From Maricaulis alexandrii (GTDB lineage: Bacteria > Pseudomonadota > Alphaproteobacteria > Caulobacterales > Maricaulaceae): a stretch of 64,000 nt of DNA. The stretch covers positions 1-64,000 of the forward strand of contig NZ_SWKP01000011.1 of the NCBI RefSeq assembly GCF_005871165.1. Reading direction: 5' to 3'. Positions 1,997 through 12,904 of the stretch are shown in pieces. Positions within the stretch are counted from its first letter, which is position 1, and each line of letters starts with the position of its first letter. The translations under genes and the position numbers were made by a program. The notes under the pieces were generated by a model. The model was not told the origin of the DNA. It did no database searches and saw nothing but the letters and a program-made list of their open reading frames with translations.

Positions 1997-2386
1997 ATGG
2001 ACACGCAGCCGCTGGCCGTTAAACGGCTGACAAAGCGGCGCGAATTTTTGTTCGTCGCCAAGGGCAAGAAAGCCGTCCGGTCCAGCGTCGTCATCCAGGC
2101 GCGAAGACGGGACGGCTCTTCTCATATGGGCCCCTGGGTCGGTGCCGGGTTCACTGCCACCCGCAAAATTGGCGGTGCCGTGGTCAGAAATCGTAGCAAA
2201 CGGCGTTTGCGCGAGGCCGCCCGGCTGCTACTCCCCCTCCACGGACAGTCCGGGTTTGACTATGTATTCATCGCGCGTGCGTCCACGCCGGAGAAGGAAT
2301 GGTCGCGCCTCGTCGGGGATGTCAAAAGCGCACTGGTAAGCCTCAAACCGTCCGAGGCACCGGACGAAGGGACACAGCAAGCCTGA
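1997..2386 (+). CDS. rnpA: Ribonuclease P protein component
   Basis: The 129-residue basic protein is the protein subunit of RNase P, which binds the catalytic RNA and the 5' leader of pre-tRNA. The family signature is clear: RLTKRREFLFV near the N-terminus, then GFTATRKIGGAVVRNRSKRR, the RNR-type RNA-binding motif. The ATG at 1997 was chosen because it precedes the conserved start LAVKRLTKRREF. Upstream in-frame codons overlap rpmH and read as shadow sequence. It lies 6 bases after rpmH and 14 bases before yidC. The acidic C-terminal tail (about 15 residues) is a lineage extension. No yidD follows, although yidD is often found at this point. Confidence 0.95.
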   Translation: MDTQPLAVKRLTKRREFLFVAKGKKAVRSSVVIQARRRDGSSHMGPWVGAGFTATRKIGGAVVRNRSKRRLREAARLLLPLHGQSGFDYVFIARASTPEKEWSRLVGDVKSALVSLKPSEAPDEGTQQA

Positions 2387-2400
2387 AAGGCCGAGTTTTC

Positions 2401-4176
2401 ATGGGCGAAGATCAACGCAATCTGTTTATCGCACTGGGCCTGATCGTCGTGATCATGCTGGGCTATGATGTCTTCTTCATGGGCCCGCAGCGCGAAGCGC
2501 GCGAAGCCGAGCAAGCGGCTCTGGAGGCCGCCGGTGAGCTGGCCGACCCTGATCTTCCGGTAGAGACCGGCGAGCCCGCCGCCCCGAGCTATGTCGACCG
2601 CGATGATGCGCTGACCGAAAACAGCCGGATCGCCATTGAAGGCCCGTCCGTGATCGGCTCCTTCTCGCTGACCGGCGCCCGTTTCGACGATATCCGTCTG
2701 GTCCGCCACACGACCAGCATTGATGACGACACACCGGTCGCCCTGCTCAACCCGATCGGGACCGAGCATGTCTTCTACGCCCGCGATGGCTGGCAGTCCG
2801 CCACGCCGGGCTTCAACGATCTGCCGGGCGGGTCCACGGAATGGACGCTGGTCTCCGGCGACACGCTGACCCCCGACACCCCCGTCGTGCTGGCCTATGA
2901 CAGCCCGTCGGGCCTGCATTTCGAACGCACGATCTCGGTCGACGAGGATTACCTCTTCACCCTGGAAGACACGGTCACCAACAATGCCGGGTCCGAAGTG
3001 GAACTCTCCCGCTATGGCCTGGTGCGCCATGAAGGCCTGCCGGAAGACCTGGTGCGCAATATCGCCGTCTTCGAGGGCGCGCTCGCCGTTGTCGACGGCA
3101 CGCTCTTCCAGAGCAAGTTCACCAAGCTTGAAGACGGTGACGGGGCCGAAGAGGAAAGCGGCGTGGGCGGCTGGGTCGGCATCACCCAGCGCTACTGGAT
3201 GGCGGCCGCCATTCCCGATCAGGACCGCAGCTTCACCGCCCGTTTCCGCACCATCGACCGCGCAGGCACGGACGCATACGAAGCCTCCTATGTCGAGCAG
3301 GCCCAGGCCCTGGCCCCGGGTGAGAGCCTGAGCTCCACCACCCGCATCTTTGCCGGAGCCAAGGAGCTTGACGTCCTGCAGGCCGTGCAGGACGAGGTCG
3401 GCATCGAGAAATTCGACATGGCGATCAATTGGGGCTGGCTCTGGTTCCTGGCGCGCCCCTTCGTTTGGCTTCTGCACCTGCTGGAAGGCTTTACCGGCCA
3501 GTTCGGTCTCGCCATCCTCGCCCTGACCCTGCTGATCAAGATCCTGATGTTCCCGCTGGCCAACCGCGCCTACGCCTCGATGGCGAAGATCAAGGCCGCT
3601 CAGCCCAAAATCCAGGAAATCCGCGAGCGTTATTCGTCTGACCAGCAAAAACAGCAAAAGGCGATGATGGATTTCTATCGGACCGAGAAGATCAATCCGA
3701 TGGCCGGCTGTCTTCCCATGCTGCCACAGATCCCGATCTTCTTTGCGCTCTACCAGACCCTTTTCAATGCCATTGAAATGCGCCACGCGCCCTTCTTCGG
3801 CTGGATCCGCGACCTGTCCGCGCCGGACCCGACGAATGTCTGGAACCTGTTCGGTCTGATCCCCTACGACCCGTCCGGCCTGTGGCTGATCGGCGGTGTT
3901 CTGGGCATCGGCGCCTGGCCGATCATCATGGGCATCACCATGGCCGCGCAGCAGGCACTCAACCCGCCGCCGCCGGATCCCATGCAGGCGAAAATCCTGG
4001 CTTTTCTGCCGATCATTTTCACCTTTGTGCTCGCACCGTTCGCGGCCGGTCTGGTGATTTATTGGGCGTGGAACAATACGCTCACCGTACTCCAGCAGTA
4101 CGTCATCATGCGGCGGCAGGGAAATGAAACGCAATTCGACAAATTCATTGCCCACCTGCTCAAGCGTAAGAGTTAA
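2401..4176 (+). CDS. yidC: Membrane protein insertase YidC
   Basis: This 591-residue YidC/Oxa1 insertase places proteins in the inner membrane alone or with SecYEG. Residues 7-25 form the N-terminal membrane helix. About 60-340 form the periplasmic beta-supersandwich domain. About 360-575 form the Oxa1 core, with the GFTGQFGLAILALTLLIK helix, the cytoplasmic coiled-coil hairpin (KIKAAQPKIQEIRERY) and the MAGCLPMLPQIPIFFALY segment. The C-terminus is basic. The start at 2401 follows AAAGGCCGAG at suitable spacing. In related bacteria engB follows closely, whereas here about 2.6 kb of foreign-looking DNA intervenes. Confidence 0.97.
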   Translation: MGEDQRNLFIALGLIVVIMLGYDVFFMGPQREAREAEQAALEAAGELADPDLPVETGEPAAPSYVDRDDALTENSRIAIEGPSVIGSFSLTGARFDDIRLVRHTTSIDDDTPVALLNPIGTEHVFYARDGWQSATPGFNDLPGGSTEWTLVSGDTLTPDTPVVLAYDSPSGLHFERTISVDEDYLFTLEDTVTNNAGSEVELSRYGLVRHEGLPEDLVRNIAVFEGALAVVDGTLFQSKFTKLEDGDGAEEESGVGGWVGITQRYWMAAAIPDQDRSFTARFRTIDRAGTDAYEASYVEQAQALAPGESLSSTTRIFAGAKELDVLQAVQDEVGIEKFDMAINWGWLWFLARPFVWLLHLLEGFTGQFGLAILALTLLIKILMFPLANRAYASMAKIKAAQPKIQEIRERYSSDQQKQQKAMMDFYRTEKINPMAGCLPMLPQIPIFFALYQTLFNAIEMRHAPFFGWIRDLSAPDPTNVWNLFGLIPYDPSGLWLIGGVLGIGAWPIIMGITMAAQQALNPPPPDPMQAKILAFLPIIFTFVLAPFAAGLVIYWAWNNTLTVLQQYVIMRRQGNETQFDKFIAHLLKRKS

Positions 4177-4602
4177 CCGCTCAACAGACCCGCACTCCGC
4201 CTAACGCATGCAGCACGCAAGGGTTTGCTCGTGCGCACGCTGAAGAGATGAGCACTGGCATGCTCCCTTCATGCCAGCCCGGCGGGTTTCGATACGGCAG
4301 GCTCGAACCAACCCCGCCGCAGGCTTGGCGCGCCCCGCAGAGACCCAAGCCACGCCATCGACGCGACCCGCGGGGCCAGCGATGCCAACACGCGGCGTTC
4401 CCGCGTTTTCCAAGCCTCCAAACCCCTGTCTGCAAAGACCCAAACGGCCGGGCGCTGGCTGATTTCGCTCGCCTAAAATGACAATCTGTAGACGTGCACC
4501 TCGAGGTTACGACTTGACCGAGCCCCAAACTGCACCCTAGCGTTATATGGCTTGTCGTTCACCGCTTTTGGTTTTTCGGCAAAGTATTAGATGGAGAATC
4601 TC
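4177..4602. other. Non-coding, structured gap between yidC and the accessory peptide unit
   Basis: There is no convincing gene in these 426 bases; open frames on both strands lack ribosome sites and recognisable sequence. The first 350 bases are GC-rich and fold-prone. One imperfect hairpin spans 4280-4319 (CGGCGGG pairing with CCCGCCG, then TTCGA with TCGAA). A second has a 7-bp stem, GGCTTGG/CCAAGCC, at 4322-4351. From about 4545 the composition turns sharply AT-rich, marking the edge of the inserted material. The promoter of the downstream peptide gene should lie in 4545-4590, but no clean -35/-10 pair is evident. Whether the hairpins form a structured RNA or are remnants is unknown. Confidence 0.5.
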
Positions 4603-4740
4603 ATGAAAGATTTTGTTGTTCCTAAACTTGAAACCCCGGTTTCCATGCACAACTCAAAAACGGCAGAAGAGACGATTCACCCTGTACTTATTGTACCTGC
4701 GATTATTGCAATCGAAGTATGGGTTGCCACTGGAGCGTAA
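4603..4740 (+). CDS. Small 45-residue peptide, candidate precursor peptide
   Basis: The ATG at 4603 is preceded by GGAG at 4593-4596 with 6-base spacing, a strong ribosome site. The 45-residue product begins MKDFVVPKLETPVSM, has a charged middle (NSKTAEETIHP) and ends in a hydrophobic stretch (VLIVPAIIAIEVWVATGA). It has no cysteine. A polar N-terminal half and a distinct C-terminal half, followed at once by a hairpin and two cotranscribed larger genes, is how precursor peptides of modified ribosomal peptides are arranged. Alternatives are a small membrane peptide (the last 18 residues could span a bilayer) or a leader peptide. I recognise no family. The composition is AT-rich and unlike the flanking chromosome, suggesting transfer. 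Confidence 0.6.
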   Translation: MKDFVVPKLETPVSMHNSKTAEETIHPVLIVPAIIAIEVWVATGA

Positions 4741-4745
4741 TGCTT

Positions 4746-4769
4746 GGGCGCGCAAAAATTTGCGCGCCC
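4746..4769 (+). terminator. Strong hairpin after the peptide gene, likely partial terminator or processing stem
   Basis: A perfect 11-bp stem (GGGCGCGCAAA pairing with TTTGCGCGCCC, loop AA) starts 6 bases after the peptide stop. A T-rich run (ACTCTTTTTG) follows at 4772-4781, as in an intrinsic terminator with a slightly displaced U-tract. Since the next gene begins at 4804 in the same direction, it probably lets only part of the transcripts through, giving more peptide than downstream protein. It could equally protect the 3' end of the short mRNA. Confidence 0.6.
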
Positions 4770-4803
4770 ATACTCTTTTTGTTCGCCTGGACGGGACCCA
4801 GCA

Positions 4804-5808
4804 ATGAAATACTTGCCAGACCAAGAAATACCTCTGAATTCACCGAATTTCTCAAGCCATGTAGATACGAGCATTGAGGCGTATGATACAAACATACGCG
4901 GCACATCAGAGTATAAAGAATTATGCAAAAATTTGGAAAAACACTCTTCATACAGAAAATCAAAAAATCAAATTGATAGCTTTCGTGACTACATTGCGTC
5001 GAAATCTTTTTCCGAATGCACACTCAATTTGTGCAAAAGTTACATATCTTCAGCCGTATCATTTCCATACGCGATACCGACTTTTTCATCAAATTGGGAA
5101 TCCCGACGCACGAGCGTGTCTTTGATATTCCCCAATAACATTATTCTTACACTTGAACTTTTCGACAAACTCTCTTCAGAGGCGAGCGCAGAACAAGACA
5201 CGGATAGCTCCCGAATAGTCATATTTGGTGGTTGTGATATTTTCCAAACGGTTCTGAGCGAGCACACGCTCCACTACAAGAAGTGGCAGATCGACAGACC
5301 AGCATCCCCGGACACCCCTCTGTCGACCTATCGGTGCGAGGAGGTTGGCGCCGGCTCGATCGGCTGCGGCACCTCTGCATTTATCAACGGTGCCACTCAA
5401 TCAATTTCCTTCACCTCGTCGAGCGGTCCTATTGTCACGGCATCGCTGTTTATCGACAATCCAGATACTGAGCTCGTGATGGATTTCGATACGAAAACCC
5501 GTAAATGCATAGCCGTCAGACCCAAAAAGACTGCACATTCGCAAGCGCAGATATTTATTGAGCTGATTGGCACACTGGATGAGATCACGCGCTCCGATAT
5601 CGAGACGCTGGTATACTTTCTCAGTTCCGATCAGCACTACATTCGCTGGGATGCCATGCGCACGCTCATCCAAAGGTGCGAGCCCGACGTCTGGTTCTCC
5701 CAATTGCAAGCGTTTGCCGACCACGACCCCCACGCAGAGGTTCGCCTCGCAGCTCGGCAAACTCTGGACCTGATCGCGCAATCCCACATTCAAGCAGAAC
5801 CGGCTTAG
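4804..5808 (+). CDS. Uncharacterised protein with C-terminal HEAT-like repeat, degenerate cupin-like middle
   Basis: The 334-residue protein belongs to no family I can name. The first 140 residues come from AT-rich DNA. Residues about 270-325 (HYIRWDAMRTLIQRC, then VRLAARQTLDLIA) read as paired HEAT-type helices. The middle parallels the next gene's product in length and layout but lacks its HxH metal motif, so it may be a non-catalytic partner; this alignment is by eye. The ATG at 4804 was taken. A TTG at 4744 with GGAG upstream would add 20 residues and put the hairpin inside the gene. GC rises markedly from about 5280, so the gene is compositionally mosaic. It lies 10 bases before the next gene. 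Confidence 0.65.
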   Translation: MKYLPDQEIPLNSPNFSSHVDTSIEAYDTNIRGTSEYKELCKNLEKHSSYRKSKNQIDSFRDYIASKSFSECTLNLCKSYISSAVSFPYAIPTFSSNWESRRTSVSLIFPNNIILTLELFDKLSSEASAEQDTDSSRIVIFGGCDIFQTVLSEHTLHYKKWQIDRPASPDTPLSTYRCEEVGAGSIGCGTSAFINGATQSISFTSSSGPIVTASLFIDNPDTELVMDFDTKTRKCIAVRPKKTAHSQAQIFIELIGTLDEITRSDIETLVYFLSSDQHYIRWDAMRTLIQRCEPDVWFSQLQAFADHDPHAEVRLAARQTLDLIAQSHIQAEPA

Positions 5809-5818
5809 AGGCAGTAAC

Positions 5819-6718
5819 ATGGTTGAGATTGTCGAGACTTCAGAGACAGATGCGATTTCGATAGAGGAATTTTGCGACGAGTATCGCGCTCAGGGTCTGT
5901 CGAGCGCTTCGCCAGAGGGCCTGAAAGAATGTGCGCCCCTGCTGCGGCGCCTCAGCAATAACAAGCGCCTAGTTGTGGATCATATCCGGGACGCGCTGAT
6001 GCAGCCCATCGATGCCAGAACGCGTTCAGTCTACAGCGCCCAAGCCATGATCATGTACCGTCAGAATGGTATATATTTGCGGTGTGCCGTCTGGCCGGGC
6101 GTAGAGGGCGACCTGTACGGCGTGTCCAGCAACAGGGCGTTCACCTACGAGTTCCCCCACGACCACAATTTTGACTTTTTGACCATTGGCCATCTAGGCC
6201 CTGGCTATGAGACCACGTGTTACGAATACGACTATGACGTTGTCGATGGTTATGTTGGTGAACAGGTCGACCTGAAACCGCTTGGCCGCTTTCGGTTGAA
6301 CTTGGACGAGACCCACCTCTATCGAGGGCACCGCACGATCCATGTACAACACCCGCCTCAATCGACATCGGTTTCCCTCAACTTGATGGGCACTGGGATT
6401 ATTTCCGCCCATACGGATCAATACATATTCGATCCCAGCATGCAGCACATCAGCGAAGTCGCCACGCCGAACGGTCTTGTCCATTTGCTGGCCATCTACA
6501 CAGCAACCGAACACGTTGAGAGCTCCCTCGACATGATCGACACAATCGCGACGAACCACCCGAATGGTCAGGTTCGGGCGGCTGCCGTTCGGGCGATCCA
6601 GGGCATCGCCTGCTCACCCGACATCAAGGAGTCGATCTATCTGCGGGCCATGGCGCGCGGCAATCCCCTAGTAAAGCGGGCGGCCCAAACAGCACTGAAC
6701 AGCCTTGCCTCTCAATAG
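5819..6718 (+). CDS. Cysteine-dioxygenase-like cupin fused to HEAT-like repeats
   Basis: The 299-residue protein has a helical N-terminus (1-70), a cupin-like middle (about 85-200) and HEAT-like helices (about 235-297, NGQVRAAAVRAIQGIA and KRAAQTALNSLA). The middle carries FPHDHNFDFLTIGHLGPGY and later HVQHPPQSTSVSLNL. These resemble the two cupin motifs of thiol dioxygenases: PxHDH (His114, His116) and the second-strand His followed by SVSLxL (His171, His175 or His178). A mononuclear iron centre is therefore plausible, though the substrate is not indicated. It is translated 10 bases after the preceding gene and likely works with it and with the 45-residue peptide. Orthology is unknown; the enzyme assignment is inference from motifs. 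Confidence 0.62.
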   Translation: MVEIVETSETDAISIEEFCDEYRAQGLSSASPEGLKECAPLLRRLSNNKRLVVDHIRDALMQPIDARTRSVYSAQAMIMYRQNGIYLRCAVWPGVEGDLYGVSSNRAFTYEFPHDHNFDFLTIGHLGPGYETTCYEYDYDVVDGYVGEQVDLKPLGRFRLNLDETHLYRGHRTIHVQHPPQSTSVSLNLMGTGIISAHTDQYIFDPSMQHISEVATPNGLVHLLAIYTATEHVESSLDMIDTIATNHPNGQVRAAAVRAIQGIACSPDIKESIYLRAMARGNPLVKRAAQTALNSLASQ

Positions 6719-6847
6719 TCACGCCGCCGCTGCCAGAGAGCGGGCCGAGCCGCCGTCACTGCACGCATGACATCATAGAACTGCAGCACGTTCTTGAGAT
6801 ACGGCCGCGTTTGGTCACCTTTGCGGGCGGATGGCGAATTCCTTATC

Positions 6848-7531
6848 GTGGATGGAATTCGCTACGCCTTCAAAGGGAGAGCCGTTCTGGCCGATAATTC
6901 CGACCTCGATATCGCCGCTGGCCGGCGATTGTTTTCCCGGCCCTGCACCTTCCTCATGGGTGCGGTTGATCTCAACCATCTGCCGCCGCCGGACCGGATC
7001 GAAGTGGCCTTTGCCGGCCGCTCCAATGTCGGCAAGTCTTCGCTGATCAATGCGCTGACGCGGCAGAACGGTCTCGCCCGCGCCTCGGGCGAGCCGGGCC
7101 GCACGCGCGAACTCAACTTTTTCAATGTCGATGAGACGGGCCTGCGCATCGTCGACCTGCCCGGCTATGGCTATGCCAAGGCGCCCAAGGATGTGGTCGA
7201 GAAATGGACCCGCCTCACCCGCGCCTTCCTGCGCGGACGGGTCAATCTGAAGCGCGTCTACCTGCTGATCGACAGCCGCCATGGTCTCAAGGCCGTGGAC
7301 GAGAAGATCATGGACGTGTTCGACGAAGCGGCCGTCAGCTACCAGATCGTGCTGACCAAGACCGACAAGATCAAACCGCCGGCCGTCAAACGGGTCAGCG
7401 AGGAAATCCGCACCGCGATCATGAAGAGGCCCGCCGCTTTCCCCCGGGTTTCTGCCACCTCATCCTCCAAGACGGACGGGATCGACCTGTTGCGGGCCGA
7501 GATTGCCGAACTCTTGCCGGACTTCGCCTGA
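6848..7531 (+). CDS. engB: Ribosome biogenesis GTP-binding protein EngB/YsxC
   Basis: This P-loop GTPase is needed for late 50S subunit assembly. G1 is [10 protein letters not shown], the switch region contains [13 protein letters not shown]3 is DLPGYGYA and G4 is TKTDK. The 227-residue length from GTG 6848 fits alphaproteobacterial EngB, which has an N-terminal [12 protein letters not shown] segment before the core. The start is uncertain: TTG 6794 would add 18 residues without a ribosome site, and ATG 6956 would remove the conserved leader. The region just upstream is the right edge of the accessory insertion, so the native start and promoter may have been replaced. The stop overlaps the next start by one base (TGATG). 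Confidence 0.93.
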
Positions 7532-8541
7532 TGGTGCCCCGTTTCATTAAAATAAGCGGTCTTTTCGCGCTCCTCGCCCTGGGTCTGACAGCCCGGTCCG
7601 AGGCGGCCGAGATCTGCAATGAGACCAGTTTCATCGCCGAAGTCGCCGCTGGCTGGGCGGTCGAGGGCGGCGTTGCGATCGAGGGCTGGACACGGGTCCG
7701 CCCGGGCGAATGCGAGACGATCGCCGAGGAAGTGGACCTGACGCAGGAACAGCCGATCTTCTTCTATGCCAAGTCCTCACTGGCCTATCTGGGCGGCGTG
7801 CGCGAATGGCGCGGCACCGTGCCCTTGTGCGTCGATGAAGCCGATTTCGAAGTCGTCGCCAATACGCGCTGCGCCGCACTGGGCCTGGCCTCCCGCGACT
7901 TTTTCGTCCGCGAGGGCGACGACCGGGAACGCACCGTGCTGGCGGAACCGTCGGACTATGGGCGCCGCTCCGGAACGGCCGGCATCCAGCGCCTGCTGCA
8001 ATCGGCCGGTTTCCCGGTGAATGGTGTGGACGGCTATGAAGGCAGCTCCACCCGCCGCGCCATCTCGCGCTTTCTCGAGACGGCCGGGATCGGCCGCGAT
8101 CCCAGCGATGCGGCCCTGATCGACGCGCTGGAAGCCCGGGCCCTGGAACGCAATGCCAGCAGCGGTCTGATCCTGTGCAATGAAGCGGATGGCGATATCT
8201 CTGCCGCGGTCGGCTACCGCACCGCCTCCATCTGGCAGTCACGCGGTTGGTGGCGCATCCATGCCGGCGAATGCGCCCGCCTGATCGGCAACCGTCTGGA
8301 AACCGCCGGCGGGGACGACGCCCCGGCCTATGTCTATGCCGAACGGGTGTCCTCGTCCGGACGCCGCGCCATGACCGGCGGCGACACCGCTTTCTGCCTT
8401 GCCCCGGCCCGTTTCGTGGCCGAAGAGCGGACCGATTGCGCCGAGCGCGGCTATTCCACCGCCCGCTTCCGCCGGGTTCCGGCGCCGCAGGATGGCGGCG
8501 TACGGGTCACGGTCGAAGAAAACGATTTCGAGGGCGGCTGA
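7531..8541 (+). CDS. Exported DUF1036 protein with two DUF1036 repeats and a peptidoglycan-binding-like insert
   Basis: The 336-residue protein has a signal peptide (about residues 1-23, cleavage after RSEA). Two DUF1036 units share the pattern CNET...A.GW...GW..V.PGEC, at about residues 25-125 and 208-315. Between them a short segment (GIQRLLQSAGFPVNGVDGYEG) resembles a PG_binding_1 helix bundle, in which a repeat unit finds glycan strands. DUF1036 proteins are typical of alphaproteobacteria and are exported, but their role is unknown. Translation is coupled to engB through a one-base overlap. Cysteines in each unit are paired and likely form disulfides. Confidence 0.85.
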   Translation: MVPRFIKISGLFALLALGLTARSEAAEICNETSFIAEVAAGWAVEGGVAIEGWTRVRPGECETIAEEVDLTQEQPIFFYAKSSLAYLGGVREWRGTVPLCVDEADFEVVANTRCAALGLASRDFFVREGDDRERTVLAEPSDYGRRSGTAGIQRLLQSAGFPVNGVDGYEGSSTRRAISRFLETAGIGRDPSDAALIDALEARALERNASSGLILCNEADGDISAAVGYRTASIWQSRGWWRIHAGECARLIGNRLETAGGDDAPAYVYAERVSSSGRRAMTGGDTAFCLAPARFVAEERTDCAERGYSTARFRRVPAPQDGGVRVTVEENDFEGG

Positions 8542-8544
8542 CCC

Positions 8545-9249
8545 ATGACGGACGAACGCCCCGACCTCTCGCACATCTCCCACTGGGTGTTCGACCTGGA
8601 CAATACGCTCTACCCGTCCGACGCGCCGATCATGTCGCAGGTGGACCGGCGCATGACGCTCTATGTGGCGCAGCTGCTGGACCTGCCCGAGGACGAGGCC
8701 CGCAAGGTCCAGAAGGATTACTGGCGCACCTATGGCACCACGCTGAACGGGCTGATGACCCATCACGGCGTGGACCAGCGTGCCTTCATGGACTTTGTCC
8801 ATGACATCGATGCCAGCGTGATCGACCCGGACCACACACTCGCCGATCGCATCGCCGCCCTGCCCGGCCAGCGCCTGGTCTACACGAACGGGTCCTTGCG
8901 CCATGCGGAGAATGTGCTCGGCCGGCTCGGCCTGGACCACCTCTTCCACGACATTTTCGATGTCGAGGCCGCCGACTTCACCCCCAAACCCCATCGCGAG
9001 GGCTTTGACCGCTTCACCAGCCGGTTCAACCTGCCCATTCCCCAATCCGTCTTCTTCGAAGACAGTGTGCGCAATCTGAAGACGGCGCATGAATTGGGCT
9101 TCACCACCGTGCTGGTTCGGGCCAAGGAAGGCGACCGCGACGAGGAAAGCGCCGGCCCGGGCGAACACCCGGATCATGTCCATTACGCCATCGACTGCCT
9201 GAGCACATTTCTCGGCACAATCACCACCAGCGCATCGAAACCGCGCTGA
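8545..9249 (+). CDS. Pyrimidine 5'-nucleotidase, HAD superfamily
   Basis: The 234-residue HAD hydrolase has motif I FDLDNTLYP (nucleophile Asp17, acid/base Asp19), motif II YTNGS, a lysine in TPKPHREGF and motif IV FFEDSVRN. This is the SDT1/pyrimidine 5'-nucleotidase subgroup that dephosphorylates UMP, CMP or toxic pyrimidine analogues. The helical cap follows motif I, as in subfamily IA. It starts 3 bases after the DUF1036 gene, forming the end of the engB unit. In many alphaproteobacteria this nucleotidase lies beside dapD, which follows here after the collagen-like genes. That suggests the latter were inserted between them. Confidence 0.9.
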   Translation: MTDERPDLSHISHWVFDLDNTLYPSDAPIMSQVDRRMTLYVAQLLDLPEDEARKVQKDYWRTYGTTLNGLMTHHGVDQRAFMDFVHDIDASVIDPDHTLADRIAALPGQRLVYTNGSLRHAENVLGRLGLDHLFHDIFDVEAADFTPKPHREGFDRFTSRFNLPIPQSVFFEDSVRNLKTAHELGFTTVLVRAKEGDRDEESAGPGEHPDHVHYAIDCLSTFLGTITTSASKPR

Positions 9250-9413: not shown

Positions 9414-10607
9414 ATGACGCATGATGACACACCCAGATATCTGGCCCTCGCGGACCGTCTCGGGCTGGACCGGGACGCCCTCGAACGGGGTGAAACGATC
9501 CGGACGACGGTGAAAATCGCTTCGTTCGAAGACTTCAGGGAGATTTTCGGCGGATCCCTGACAGAGGCACAGCGTGACGCCCATTCTGCCGCTCACAAGT
9601 CCCGCCCGACGAGCCCTGACAGTACACTGGCCCTGCTGGACGAACTGGAACGGCATGTTTACGGCCGGCACACGCTGAGCGAACAGGCGCGTGACTATGC
9701 ACAGACCGCCTTCCCGATTTCGGCCAAGGTGATGAGCGCCACCGACCTGGTGATTTCCGAAGATGAGATTCTGGGGCCTGGCGGCGCGCCTGTCGTGATC
9801 AGCTGCGACACACTCACTTTTTCCGGCGGCAGCATTCAGGCCATTACAACCTCACTGCATATCACGGCCCGTGAGCTGGCGGTCAATGACCCCGGCTCAA
9901 CCCATTTCCACATCGGCATTCTTGGAGAAAAGGGAGAGAATGGCCCGCGCGGTGAAGACGGAGCCCCGTACGCCGAACCGGCGAAGACGGGCAAAAAGGG
10001 AAAGACCGCCTCGCCCGGCGTCTGCAAAAGCAGCGGCGGTGACGGCGATGACGGCGCGCGCGGCCGTAACGGCACCGACGGCGAACGCGGCGATGACGGA
10101 CGAGGATCCATGTCGGCGAATGTCACAATCGATAAATTTGCCGGTCCCAACCCGTTTATTGTCTTCACCGAGTCCGGCGCCGGAGGGGATGGCGGTGATG
10201 GCGGCAATGGCGGCAAGGGCCAGGATGGCGGGAGAGGCGGAAAAGGCTGCGATTCAGGATGCACAGGCACGAATGGCGGCAATGGCGGCAAGGCCGGTGA
10301 AGGCGGCGATGGCCTGAATGGCGGCGACGGAGGTCGGGCCGTCGACGCCTGGGGCGATATCTATATCCTCTTCCCCAAGGAGGCGACCGCGATGCTCCAG
10401 ACCAATAAGAGCACGGTGTCGCCAGGCAAATACGGAAATGCCGGGAAGGCCGGCCTGCCTGGCGAGCCCGGCAAGGGTGGCAGTGGCGGCAAACATGCCA
10501 ACAAAGGGAAGACGGGCAAGGAGAATAGTCCGGGCATGTCGGGCTCTCGCGGGGAGCACGGCAAAGGCTCCGGCATGCCCGCCAACTACCAGATTCACTA
10601 CTTCTGA
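9414..10607 (+). CDS. Collagen-like glycine-rich repeat protein 1
   Basis: The 397-residue protein has a non-repetitive N-terminal 165 residues with a beta-rich segment (ISAKVMSATDLVISEDEIL). Gly-X-Y tracts follow at about 165-240, 255-310 and 340-390 (GEKGENGPRGEDG, GDGGDGGNGGKGQDG). Between the tracts lie short beta-like modules (NVTIDKFAGPNPFIVF and DAWGDIYILFPKEA). There is no signal peptide or anchor. Bacterial collagen-like proteins form triple helices in surface or spore structures and are spread laterally or grown by repeat expansion. The next gene has the same architecture. Codon use is native high-GC. Function is unknown; a scaffold or secreted structural protein is inference. Confidence 0.8.
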   Translation: MTHDDTPRYLALADRLGLDRDALERGETIRTTVKIASFEDFREIFGGSLTEAQRDAHSAAHKSRPTSPDSTLALLDELERHVYGRHTLSEQARDYAQTAFPISAKVMSATDLVISEDEILGPGGAPVVISCDTLTFSGGSIQAITTSLHITARELAVNDPGSTHFHIGILGEKGENGPRGEDGAPYAEPAKTGKKGKTASPGVCKSSGGDGDDGARGRNGTDGERGDDGRGSMSANVTIDKFAGPNPFIVFTESGAGGDGGDGGNGGKGQDGGRGGKGCDSGCTGTNGGNGGKAGEGGDGLNGGDGGRAVDAWGDIYILFPKEATAMLQTNKSTVSPGKYGNAGKAGLPGEPGKGGSGGKHANKGKTGKENSPGMSGSRGEHGKGSGMPANYQIHYF

Positions 10608-10667
10608 TTCCGTCTGTGCGGTCGGCAGCGTCCGGCGCAACGCGGCATCCCTGCTTGGAATAACTGG

Positions 10668-11939
10668 ATGCAACACCGAGATCTGAACAGGTCGGACACA
10701 GGGGCCGGATGGCCGCTGGGCGATTATTGCGTGCAAATTCCAACCTTGGAAGACGGGCGCCGGTTTCTCGGTCCTCCGTCCGAAGATGCGCGCCACGCGC
10801 GCAGCCAGGCCTATTGGCAACAAGCCCAGATGCGGTCCCGGGGGCGATTGCGTCTTGGCATGCACGACCGGGGCGAGGAATTCATGCTCGCCAACGGCTC
10901 GATCTGCGAGGCGGATCTTGATGGCCATCGCAATCACCTCCCTTTGCATGTCCGGGTCCTGCGCCAGCACGAAATCCGCATTGCCCAGGGTGAAACGCTC
11001 GACCTGACAGCGTCCCACACCTGGTGGGACGGTCTGGACAGTCGCGAGGAACTCTATGTCCTGCTCCAGGTTGACCGGCTCATTGTCGAACCCGGGGCCC
11101 GTCTGACCGTGCGCGGCAATGTCTGCGTCTGCAATATCGGACATCTCATTGCGGATCCGCCGACCGGACCGGGACAACCGCCTGTCCCGCAATTCGAGAT
11201 CCATGTCCGCGGGACGGCGCATGCCGCCTACAGCGCCCTTCGCGACGCGCCGTCGGAAGACGGACGGGACGGGCTGGACGGCGTGCCGGGACGAACCGCA
11301 CGAGAACGCACCCCGGAACCCAGTCTTCTCGGACCTCTTGGACAAGCCACCATTCTCGAACCGGCAACGGACGGACAGGACGGGCTGCCGGGTCAGGACG
11401 GCACTCGCGGACAGAATGGCGGGCTGGCGATGGTCGCCGATATCCGCATTGGCCGGATCAGTGGTTTTGCCCCGAAAGGTGTTCGCGTTTTCGGTCAGGC
11501 CAGTGCGGGCCAGCCCGGAGGCAATGGCGGTCGGGGCGGTCGCGGCGGTGACGGCGGAAACGGGCGCACACATGCCGCCCGGGGCGGTGACGGCGGAGCA
11601 GGCGGAGACGGCGGCCATGGCGGGAATGGAGGCCTGGCCGGAAATATTTTTGTCGAATTGCCGGCCGACGACCGGGACCGCGTCGAAACCTGTTCGAAAG
11701 ACAGTCTGGGTGGCCGGGCCGGGCGGGGCGGCCGTGGCGGGGATGCGGGCCGCAACGGCATGGCACGTGATGCTGGTGCCGCGCAACCGACCGCGCCTGC
11801 ACGGCCGGGCCGGGACGGGCGGGACGGGCGCCCGGGTCGTGGACGGCCGGGGCCGAATATCCATCTTCTGCTCACGCCCCCGGCTGCCCAAGCCGCGGCG
11901 GCAGACGCCTCCCAGGCCCATGAGCCGGTCGCGACCTGA
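10668..11939 (+). CDS. Collagen-like glycine-rich repeat protein 2
   Basis: The 423-residue partner of the preceding gene lies 60 bases downstream. The N-terminal 190 residues are non-repetitive, with beta-like strands (HVRVLRQHEIRIAQGETLDL, YVLLQVDRLIVEPGARLTV) and a VCVCN cysteine pair. The C-terminal half alternates Gly-X-Y blocks (DGLPGQDGTRGQNGG, GGNGGRGGRGGDGG) with short modules such as GNIFVELPADD. As in protein 1, each Gly block is followed by a hydrophobic beta segment ending in I-x-L/V, so the two are clearly paralogues. There is no signal peptide. Joint expression is likely, and they may form a heteromeric fibre. Confidence 0.8.
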   Translation: MQHRDLNRSDTGAGWPLGDYCVQIPTLEDGRRFLGPPSEDARHARSQAYWQQAQMRSRGRLRLGMHDRGEEFMLANGSICEADLDGHRNHLPLHVRVLRQHEIRIAQGETLDLTASHTWWDGLDSREELYVLLQVDRLIVEPGARLTVRGNVCVCNIGHLIADPPTGPGQPPVPQFEIHVRGTAHAAYSALRDAPSEDGRDGLDGVPGRTARERTPEPSLLGPLGQATILEPATDGQDGLPGQDGTRGQNGGLAMVADIRIGRISGFAPKGVRVFGQASAGQPGGNGGRGGRGGDGGNGRTHAARGGDGGAGGDGGHGGNGGLAGNIFVELPADDRDRVETCSKDSLGGRAGRGGRGGDAGRNGMARDAGAAQPTAPARPGRDGRDGRPGRGRPGPNIHLLLTPPAAQAAAADASQAHEPVAT

Positions 11940-12076
11940 CGACGCACGCCTCAAGCGGATTGCCAGCGTGCAGGAAATCGCACGCGCAGGGTTTGATGCA
12001 CCGCAACTTACAGACTAAACCGGCCTCTCGGTGAGACACACCGCACGTGCAACTTCGTCAGCAAGAGCGCCCCATC

Positions 12077-12904
12077 ATGACCGACGCCACCCTCATCTCC
12101 ATGATCGAAGCCGCCTGGGACAATCGCGAGACCGTGTCGACAGACACGCAGGGCGAGGTCCGCGAAGCCGTCGAGAGCGCGATTGCGCTGCTGGACAGCG
12201 GCCAGGGCCGGGTGGCCTCGAAAGAGGGCAATGGCGACTGGATCGTGCATCAATGGCTCAAGAAGGCGGTCCTGCTGGGTTTCCGCCTGAACCCGATGGG
12301 CACGATCGATGGCGGTGTCGGCTCCGGCAAATGGTGGGACAAGGTGCCCTCCAAGTTCGAGGGCTGGGGCGAAGACGAGTTCAAGGCTGCCGGATTCCGC
12401 GCCGTGCCGCCCTGCGCCGTGCGCCGAGGCGCCTATATCGCGCCGGGCACGGTTCTGATGCCCTCCTATGTGAATATCGGCGCCTATGTCGATGAAGGCA
12501 CGATGGTGGACACCTGGGCCACGGTCGGTTCCTGCGCCCAGATCGGCAAGAATGTCCATATCTCCGGCGGGGTCGGGATTGGCGGCGTGCTGGAACCGCT
12601 GCAGGCCGGTCCGGTCATCATCGAGGATGATGTGTTTGTCGGTGCCCGGTCCGAAGTCGCCGAAGGCGTGATCGTCCGCCAGGGGGCCGTTATCTCCATG
12701 GGTGTCTTCCTGGGCCAGTCGACCAAGATCGTGAACCGCGAAACCGGCGAGATCACGCGTGGTGAGATCCCGGCCTATTCCGTGGTCGTGCCGGGCACGC
12801 TGCCGGATCCCAAGGGCGGCCCGTCCCTCGCCTGCGCCGTGATCGTCAAACAGGTCGACGCCCAGACGCGGTCCAAGACCTCGATCAACGAGCTGCTGCG
12901 GTAA
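12077..12904 (+). CDS. dapD: 2,3,4,5-tetrahydropyridine-2,6-dicarboxylate N-succinyltransferase
   Basis: DapD (275 residues) succinylates tetrahydrodipicolinate in the succinylase branch of lysine and meso-DAP synthesis. The N-terminal helical domain is followed by the left-handed parallel beta-helix with hexapeptide repeats ([22 protein letters not shown], then [15 protein letters not shown]). The C-terminus [12 protein letters not shown] is typical. The ATG at 12077 was chosen over an upstream GTG at 12047 because it matches the family N-terminus. The 3' end overlaps the convergent flavoprotein gene by 20 bases. dapE lies 4 kb downstream. Confidence 0.96.

Follow-up and report, generated by a model that had tools for sequence, protein, structure and literature searches.

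The window analysed here is a stretch of 64,000 nucleotides from Maricaulis alexandrii (NCBI RefSeq assembly GCF_005871165.1, contig NZ_SWKP01000011.1, positions 1 to 64,000 of the forward strand), in which a small peptide gene, a hairpin and two protein genes, termed HEAT1 and cupin-HEAT, are found between yidC and engB. This unit is probably a system of the kind that makes ribosomally synthesized and post-translationally modified peptides (RiPPs), where the modifying enzyme would be a cupin that does not act on thiols, probably depends on Fe and O2, and works with an inactive partner. A narrower proposal, put at slightly less than an even chance, is that it represents a new RiPP class, where a three-histidine, O2-dependent enzyme of the cysteine dioxygenase (CDO) fold and its dead paralogue, both with HEAT repeats, modify hydrophobic peptides that lack Cys, at carbon or backbone positions. 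To our knowledge, carbon or backbone modification of peptides is a chemistry that has not been assigned to the cysteine dioxygenase fold. If true, this would be a new type of peptide-modifying enzyme, with a fold best known for the oxygenation of small thiols and with a pseudoenzyme encoded alongside it; the system is common in one sphingomonad family (f9), and the large set of precursors makes the enzymology directly testable in E. coli. The unit is composed of the following elements.

4168-6891, + strand: inserted segment between yidC and engB, with low G+C; approximate limits from alignments of 18 congeners.
4593-4596, + strand: ribosome-binding site GGAG, 6 nucleotides 5' of the peptide ATG, read from the sequence.
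4603-4740, + strand: gene for a precursor-like peptide (ATG 4603, TAA 4740), 45 amino acids.
4745-4770, + strand: hairpin of 11-12 pairs, terminator-like, then TACTCTTTTT, between the peptide and the maturation genes.
4804-5808, + strand: HEAT1, 334 amino acids; cysteine dioxygenase fold in which the His set is missing, and HEAT repeats at the C-terminus.
5819-6718, + strand: cupin-HEAT, 299 amino acids; cysteine dioxygenase fold with H114, H116 and H175, plus C-terminal HEAT repeats.

A sequence-only reading of the window had already described the 45-residue peptide gene with its ribosome-binding site and the two genes separated by ten bases, both of which are confirmed. Regarding the hairpin with T-run that it placed after the peptide, the 11-bp stem and the tail stand and the distance is corrected from 6 to four bases after the stop, which is trivial. 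A second in-frame ATG is found upstream of the peptide start, at 4591. A single copy of the unit was found in the genome, together with two weak, partial HEAT1 matches elsewhere.

The three genes are linked across genomes. In a set of 99 loci, which is not fully independent (L087 and L088 being duplicates), a 31-row HEAT1 profile matches an open reading frame (ORF) ending at the start of the cupin gene in 97, and in 67/69 when only loci outside its seed are counted; the misses are the Vibrio plasmid locus L005 and L033, at a contig end. An earlier four-row HEAT1 profile had matched in 80/99 loci. Judged by position and length only, an ORF of at least 180 amino acids ends at the cupin start in 95/99 loci and overlaps the cupin gene in 83. 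With a peptide profile seeded from 54 of the 99 loci, a match at E<1e-3 is found 5' of HEAT1 in 85/99 loci. No match located elsewhere reaches E<0.1 in the 13,832 small ORFs of both strands, and of the seven weaker ones found there, two (L084, L075) resemble real peptides. Among newly fetched loci, a peptide precedes HEAT1 in 27/28 (10 known peptides, 17 new). The co-occurrence that the sequence-only reading had put up for checking is thus observed, with a peptide of one family beside both proteins, and a precursor gene beside candidate modifier genes is what a RiPP cluster calls for. Two different peptides are encoded in each of the two Alteromonas units (L004, L058), and one Sphingomonas genome has a tandem pair of units with three peptide-like ORFs (L084, 7685-12859).

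The window peptide has a leader with VPKLETPVSMHNS followed by the hydrophobic IHPVLIVPAIIAIEVWVATGA. In the family, the leader consensus is (K/N)LPKIDLSSLPDLDTLTGLFGS (LPxLxTxxGxxGS-like), followed by a variable linker and usually by a hydrophobic block, located near the C-terminus in most peptides; in the alignment, VPKLETPVSMHNS of the window stands opposite LPQLKTPVGLHGS of L018. When the window peptide was compared with 14 hand-picked relatives (2000 shuffles), similarity was found to those of L018, L056, L025 and L020 (p<=0.0005), as well as in the summed score, and none to those of L004 and L006. In the main sphingomonad type, the leader is conserved apart from the core, as in RiPP precursors, with a pN/pS of 0.31 for the leader and 0.45 for the core (372 pairs, 58 alignable peptides of 89), and the peptide is under purifying selection. 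Three core types can be distinguished by eye, DDxIVVIMVYIYE, VGGxxC and [VI]xP, the window belonging to the last, and the types differ between clades. Cysteine is lacking in 73/86 distinct peptides, including that of the window, and present in 13/86, several of them with the VGGxxC core.

Searches of curated families with the two proteins return nothing beyond HEAT, the other matches being weak and attributable to chance. The HEAT-like C-terminus that the sequence-only reading gave to both proteins is seen in the window as weak HEAT_2 matches below the Pfam cut-off and as helical C-termini in the models, and PF13646 is matched above the cut-off by HEAT1 of L018 and L043. No anti-phage defense model of PADLOC is matched by the four proteins submitted, and PHROG gives a single weak match to a family of unknown function. 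Against the PDB, the single cupin sequence has no match and the cupin profile no usable one, and HEAT1 matches artificial HEAT-like repeats, one designed binder and a phycocyanobilin lyase subunit. The AlphaFold2 models are confident (pLDDT 93.2 for the cupin and 89.2 for HEAT1) and show the thiol dioxygenase fold, to which helices at the N-terminus and HEAT repeats at the C-terminus are added. With the cupin model, the top Foldseek matches are thiol dioxygenases (4tlf, E 5.9e-8), led by 3-mercaptopropionate dioxygenase (3MDO) from P. aeruginosa, CDO from B. subtilis, mercaptosuccinate dioxygenase and rat CDO; with HEAT1, rat and mouse CDO come first (rat CDO 4ubh, E 1.4e-6). TM-scores by target length among the top 20 are 0.48-0.71 for the cupin and 0.38-0.55 for HEAT1. 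As modelled, both proteins share the thiol dioxygenase fold, without close kinship. BLASTP detects no match between HEAT1 and cupin, and their paralogy is visible by profiles alone, hhalign giving a probability of 96 over 253 (or 245) columns; by this comparison, HEAT1 is a paralogue of the cupin that lacks the His set. Compared by profile with two CDO/3MDO sequences, HEAT1 gives no match. The residues concerned are encoded in cupin-HEAT as follows.

6158-6166, + strand: codons of H114-D115-H116 (HxH), both His in 69/69 rows.
6341-6343, + strand: codon of H175, the third invariant His, in 69/69 rows.
6380-6382, + strand: codon of N188, Asn in 69/69 rows and Ala in a Vibrio row; opposite the catalytic His of thiol dioxygenases, in a low-probability register.

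In 69 cupins, H114, H116, H175, R88, W92, Q177, N188 and Q201 are invariant, and when two plasmid rows are added (71 rows) the three His, R88, W92 and Q177 remain so. The cupin thereby has the residues of the three-His site of thiol dioxygenases, the metal itself being predicted. In HEAT1, no such set exists: in the strands matching the ligands, His occurs in any column in at most 4 and 6 of 31 rows, or 13 and 7 of 60, and outside these strands, a single column within the cupin part of the 60-row alignment has His in 24/60. The Ser-His-Tyr outer triad, which plays a role in thiol dioxygenases, is not kept by the cupin: in the register of 3MDO, taken from a probability-1.4 alignment, it corresponds to S186/N188/M190, residue 190 being Met, Leu, Val or Ile in the 69 rows. 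In fold and His set the cupin resembles thiol dioxygenases, in the triad it departs from them, and no membership of PF05995 is proposed. The inference of the sequence-only reading is largely borne out: its "cysteine-dioxygenase-like" is supported by the fold, its "inactive partner" by the profile comparison and the loss of the His set, its restriction of cupin ligands to the second gene by the HxH...H found there, and its doubt about a thiol target by the 73/86 Cys-free peptides and, in a weak alignment, by the Asn at 188.

Regarding the RNA, the window hairpin can be drawn with 11 pairs and a loop of 4, or with 12 pairs and a loop of 2, and with its T-rich tail it extends over 4745-4780; the fold of 4738-4804 has z = -3.5 against dinucleotide shuffles, and no Rfam match to the window unit is found at the gathering score. 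Strong hairpins soon 3' of the peptide stop are present in 55/89 loci, compared with 3.4 in mononucleotide shuffles. The idea of a T-tailed terminator everywhere was dropped, the main sphingomonad stem being located in the 5' coding region of HEAT1 without a T-run. In that type (42 loci), the stem lies within the first codons of HEAT1, as in L015 (8062-8112), where it is a covarying 13-bp stem (A9 loci). There, 94% of cells pair and 42 two-sided changes are counted vs 10.8 in shuffles, with lower values in slid controls; the 42 loci were selected by their high hairpin scores and share ancestry, and these figures overstate the covariation. The stem exchanges CTG/CAG for TTG/CAA, which is synonymous on both sides, and the stem at the HEAT1 start perhaps restrains translation of the maturation genes.

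Among the neighboring genes, exporter-like genes adjoin 5/9 of the non-alphaproteobacterial units inspected (Pfam on 10 chosen neighbors, with crude ORF calls in some loci).

L004 (Alteromonas plasmid): Pfam identifies an HlyD-type adaptor, a MacB/FtsX permease and an ABC-2 permease; ABC ATPases are seen from annotation or reading.
L058 (A. halophila): Pfam identifies an ABC-2 permease; upstream, HlyD- and MacB-like genes are recognized by reading.
L056 (Tahibacter): a similar set, by reading.
L075 (Xanthomonas): HlyD by Pfam; ABC ATPase by reading.
L009 (Blastopirellula, a planctomycete), 9748-12235: ABC ATPase and LuxR-type autoinducer-binding protein after the unit, by Pfam.

In the sphingomonad locus L018, a TolC-like gene is found 5.5 kb away, and L015 and L074 adjoin ruvX, by reading of the sequence. 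A clustering of neighbors based on greedy ORFs was too noisy and was discarded.

The metal, the reaction, the product and the activity of the system are predicted as follows. To judge from the position of the hairpin, between the peptide gene and the two protein genes, the peptide is probably produced in larger amounts than both proteins. The leader would be recognized by the pair, most likely via HEAT1, in which the fold is kept and the metal site lost, and via the HEAT repeats. The three-histidine site of cupin-HEAT most likely binds Fe(II) and would use O2 on the C-terminal part of the peptide. Since most peptides are without Cys and the triad reads Ser-Asn-Met, the usual targets would be side chains or the backbone of the mostly Val/Ile-rich block, not a thiol. 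The leader would then be cut off; in several lineages, the neighboring MacAB/HlyD-like and ABC-2 transporters are the probable route of export for the product. Such a product is more likely an antimicrobial or a signal than a housekeeping cofactor.

Several observations weigh against a RiPP-type system built on an oxygen-dependent cupin. With regard to the enzyme, no CDO_I/PF05995 profile match is found in Pfam searches; the cupin profile aligns with true 3MDO at a probability of 1.4, a weak link in which the His set is nevertheless in register; and N188, along with Q201, differs in the Vibrio row of the 71. Since the sequence link to 3MDO and CDO is weak and PF05995 is not matched, the enzyme assignment rests on the fold and the His set. 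No RRE-type (PqqD-like) domain occurs among the family-search matches of the unit proteins; many RiPP classes are without an RRE domain. With regard to the peptide, the window sequence reaches only E=1 with the sphingomonad-heavy family profile, and the main sphingomonad core (DDxIVVIMVYIYE) is rather conserved, beyond what an antimicrobial arms race would lead one to expect. No match to the peptide profile is found in 10/99 loci, three of which are short of upstream sequence, and at the peptide position of L006, L058, L096, L098 and L100 a small ORF preceded by a ribosome-binding site was recognized by eye only. The same applies to L163 (G768:C31), the 28th new locus, where the candidate ORF (-1187 to -1014 relative to the cupin) has a ribosome-binding site and a leader-like start, and its C-terminus is polar, with Pro and Gly, not hydrophobic; given this candidate, cores may vary more than the sphingomonad set suggests. 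In L075, a peptide-like ORF with a VGGPLC core (9972-10091) is located 3' of the cupin and not 5' of HEAT1. As for export and maturation, no exporter, protease or RRE-type domain is recognized beside the window unit, no exporter beside L005, L043 and L103, and no ABC or HlyD exporter in the sphingomonad loci L015, L018, L053 and L074 (crude ORF calls); L104 has an RND-type pump upstream and no other exporter. No protease is recognized beside the units read (Pfam, 10 chosen neighbors), which leaves leader removal unexplained.

Other explanations have to be weighed against this background. HEAT1 and the cupin could bind, carry or protect an unmodified membrane-active peptide or bacteriocin, as a chaperone or immunity complex; HEAT repeats are binding scaffolds, HEAT1 is without a conserved His set and in most peptides the region near the C-terminus includes a hydrophobic block. 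However, H114, H116 and H175 are retained in 69/69 rows with many invariant residues around them, as catalysis, rather than binding, would predict, and the peptides have a separate conserved leader, so that this explanation is considered rather unlikely. Activity of the cupin as a genuine thiol dioxygenase, on a peptide cysteine or on a free thiol, would fit its top fold matches and the 13/86 distinct peptides with Cys, several of them in the VGGxxC core; yet the other 73/86 are Cys-free, that of the window included, and Asn188 (69/69) and Met/Leu/Val/Ile at 190 stand where the triad has His and Tyr (in a weak register), which makes a thiol substrate quite improbable.

A toxin-antidote pair, where the peptide is an intracellular membrane toxin neutralized by the two proteins, would account for a small peptide with a hydrophobic block in an AT-rich insert, but it would not predict a leader better conserved than the hydrophobic part, nor exporter-like genes beside five non-alphaproteobacterial units, and PADLOC has no match; we regard it as very unlikely. 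Hardly any weight is given to a role of the small ORF as a regulatory leader peptide (attenuator) for both genes with the hairpin as a switch. The ORF does precede a terminator-like hairpin, and a covarying paired stem is present at the HEAT1 start (42 chosen sequences), but leader and core are conserved at the protein level, a peptide-like ORF lies 3' of the cupin in L075, and L004 and L058 each encode two different peptides.

The proposed RiPP-type system can be compared with several known ones. Like RiPP clusters, the unit has a short gene with a conserved leader and differing cores, protein genes directly 3', a hairpin between them and, in some lineages, exporter-like genes; unlike them, it shows neither a known RiPP enzyme family nor an RRE-type domain among its family-search matches. 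Thiol dioxygenases (CDO, 3MDO, mercaptosuccinate dioxygenase, ADO/PCO; PF05995) have the fold of both proteins and the HxH...H of the cupin, whereas the unit proteins do not match PF05995 and carry extra N-terminal helices and C-terminal HEAT repeats, and the cupin, in which the triad is not kept, is encoded together with a paralogue that is without the His set. Darobactin-type clusters combine HlyD/MacB-like exporters, a short precursor gene and a radical SAM enzyme; a MacAB-like exporter adjoining a short precursor gene is thus common to both, but a cupin pair is found here instead of the radical SAM enzyme. In the phycobilin lyases CpcE/CpcF, two HEAT proteins work as a pair on a protein substrate, and one HEAT1 has sub-threshold HEAT matches to CpcE/CpcF and NblB, although these are confined to the HEAT part. 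In the PMC open-licence full text, which leaves preprints and subscription papers mostly uncovered, no description of the HEAT1/cupin pair was found among the matches listed. A cupin-like hydroxylase, PbsQ, hydroxylates ornithine in a biphenomycin-like RiPP pathway (PMC12257519) and is comparable to the proposed role of the cupin, since a protein with the cupin fold has a RiPP precursor as its substrate; in contrast, PbsQ has a JmjC protein as a relative and its step follows those of an MNIO and an arginase, and the passages of that paper on "cupin" mention neither an inactive paralogue nor HEAT repeats (PMC12257519).

The location between yidC (2299-4176) and engB, on the far side, is that of an insert, as had been read from the sequence. 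In 18/18 other genomes of the genus, the unit is not present at this junction and 34-164 nt separate the aligned blocks of yidC and engB, which makes the unit an insert of ~2.7 kb; the alignments stop at 4123–4167 and restart at 6892–6988. The insert is AT-rich, with a G+C of 0.51 for the unit vs 0.64 for the window. A second unit is found between yidC and engB in G479, a sphingomonad of a different family (L102 6521-8582, G479:C3), with a G+C of 0.365 in a stretch of 0.54 and a peptide in which the HP motif is likewise present; among the fetched loci, YidC or EngB neighbors are seen for this unit only. In the cupin tree, the window cupin joins that of G479 (94/83), both branches being long and the join flagged by the tree tool. 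The other unit of the genus (L006) has its cupin in another clade (100/98 with L043) and, therefore, the genus seems to have taken up the system twice, to judge from the tree. Transfer of the unit via recombination in the flanking genes would be a guess. In L006, an extra ORF of ~100 amino acids lies between the peptide and HEAT1 (8329-8631), without a Pfam match at E 0.01.

With regard to distribution, GTDB species genomes were scanned with a four-row profile, by which 411 of 454 stretches were confirmed and the best 80 fetched. The fetched relatives are mostly Sphingomonadales, together with Alteromonas, Tahibacter, Xanthomonas, one planctomycete and one acidobacterium. The cupin is present in 2/101 near relatives, the window's own genome counted, and relatives are found in 15/398 sampled genomes of the phylum and 5/385 of the class (own genome included). 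In the sphingomonad family f9, the system is found in 55/149 genomes; this family would be the Sphingomonadaceae of GTDB, since the cupins of L087 and L088 match named loci and their peptides match those of L015 and L081. In the plasmid set, two records match the cupin (one Alteromonas, one Vibrio) and none matches HEAT1, and among viral contigs none of the 27 pattern stretches is a relative. The Vibrio plasmid locus L005 (4177-5745) encodes a 228-amino-acid cupin without most of the HEAT part, with a 247-amino-acid ORF before it, which the broader HEAT1 profile does not confirm, a 59-amino-acid ORF after it and no trusted peptide ORF in the slot before the HEAT1 position; it is possibly a reduced form of the system. 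Elsewhere in the window, two adjacent genes (9414-11939) encode proteins with long glycine-rich, collagen-like stretches.

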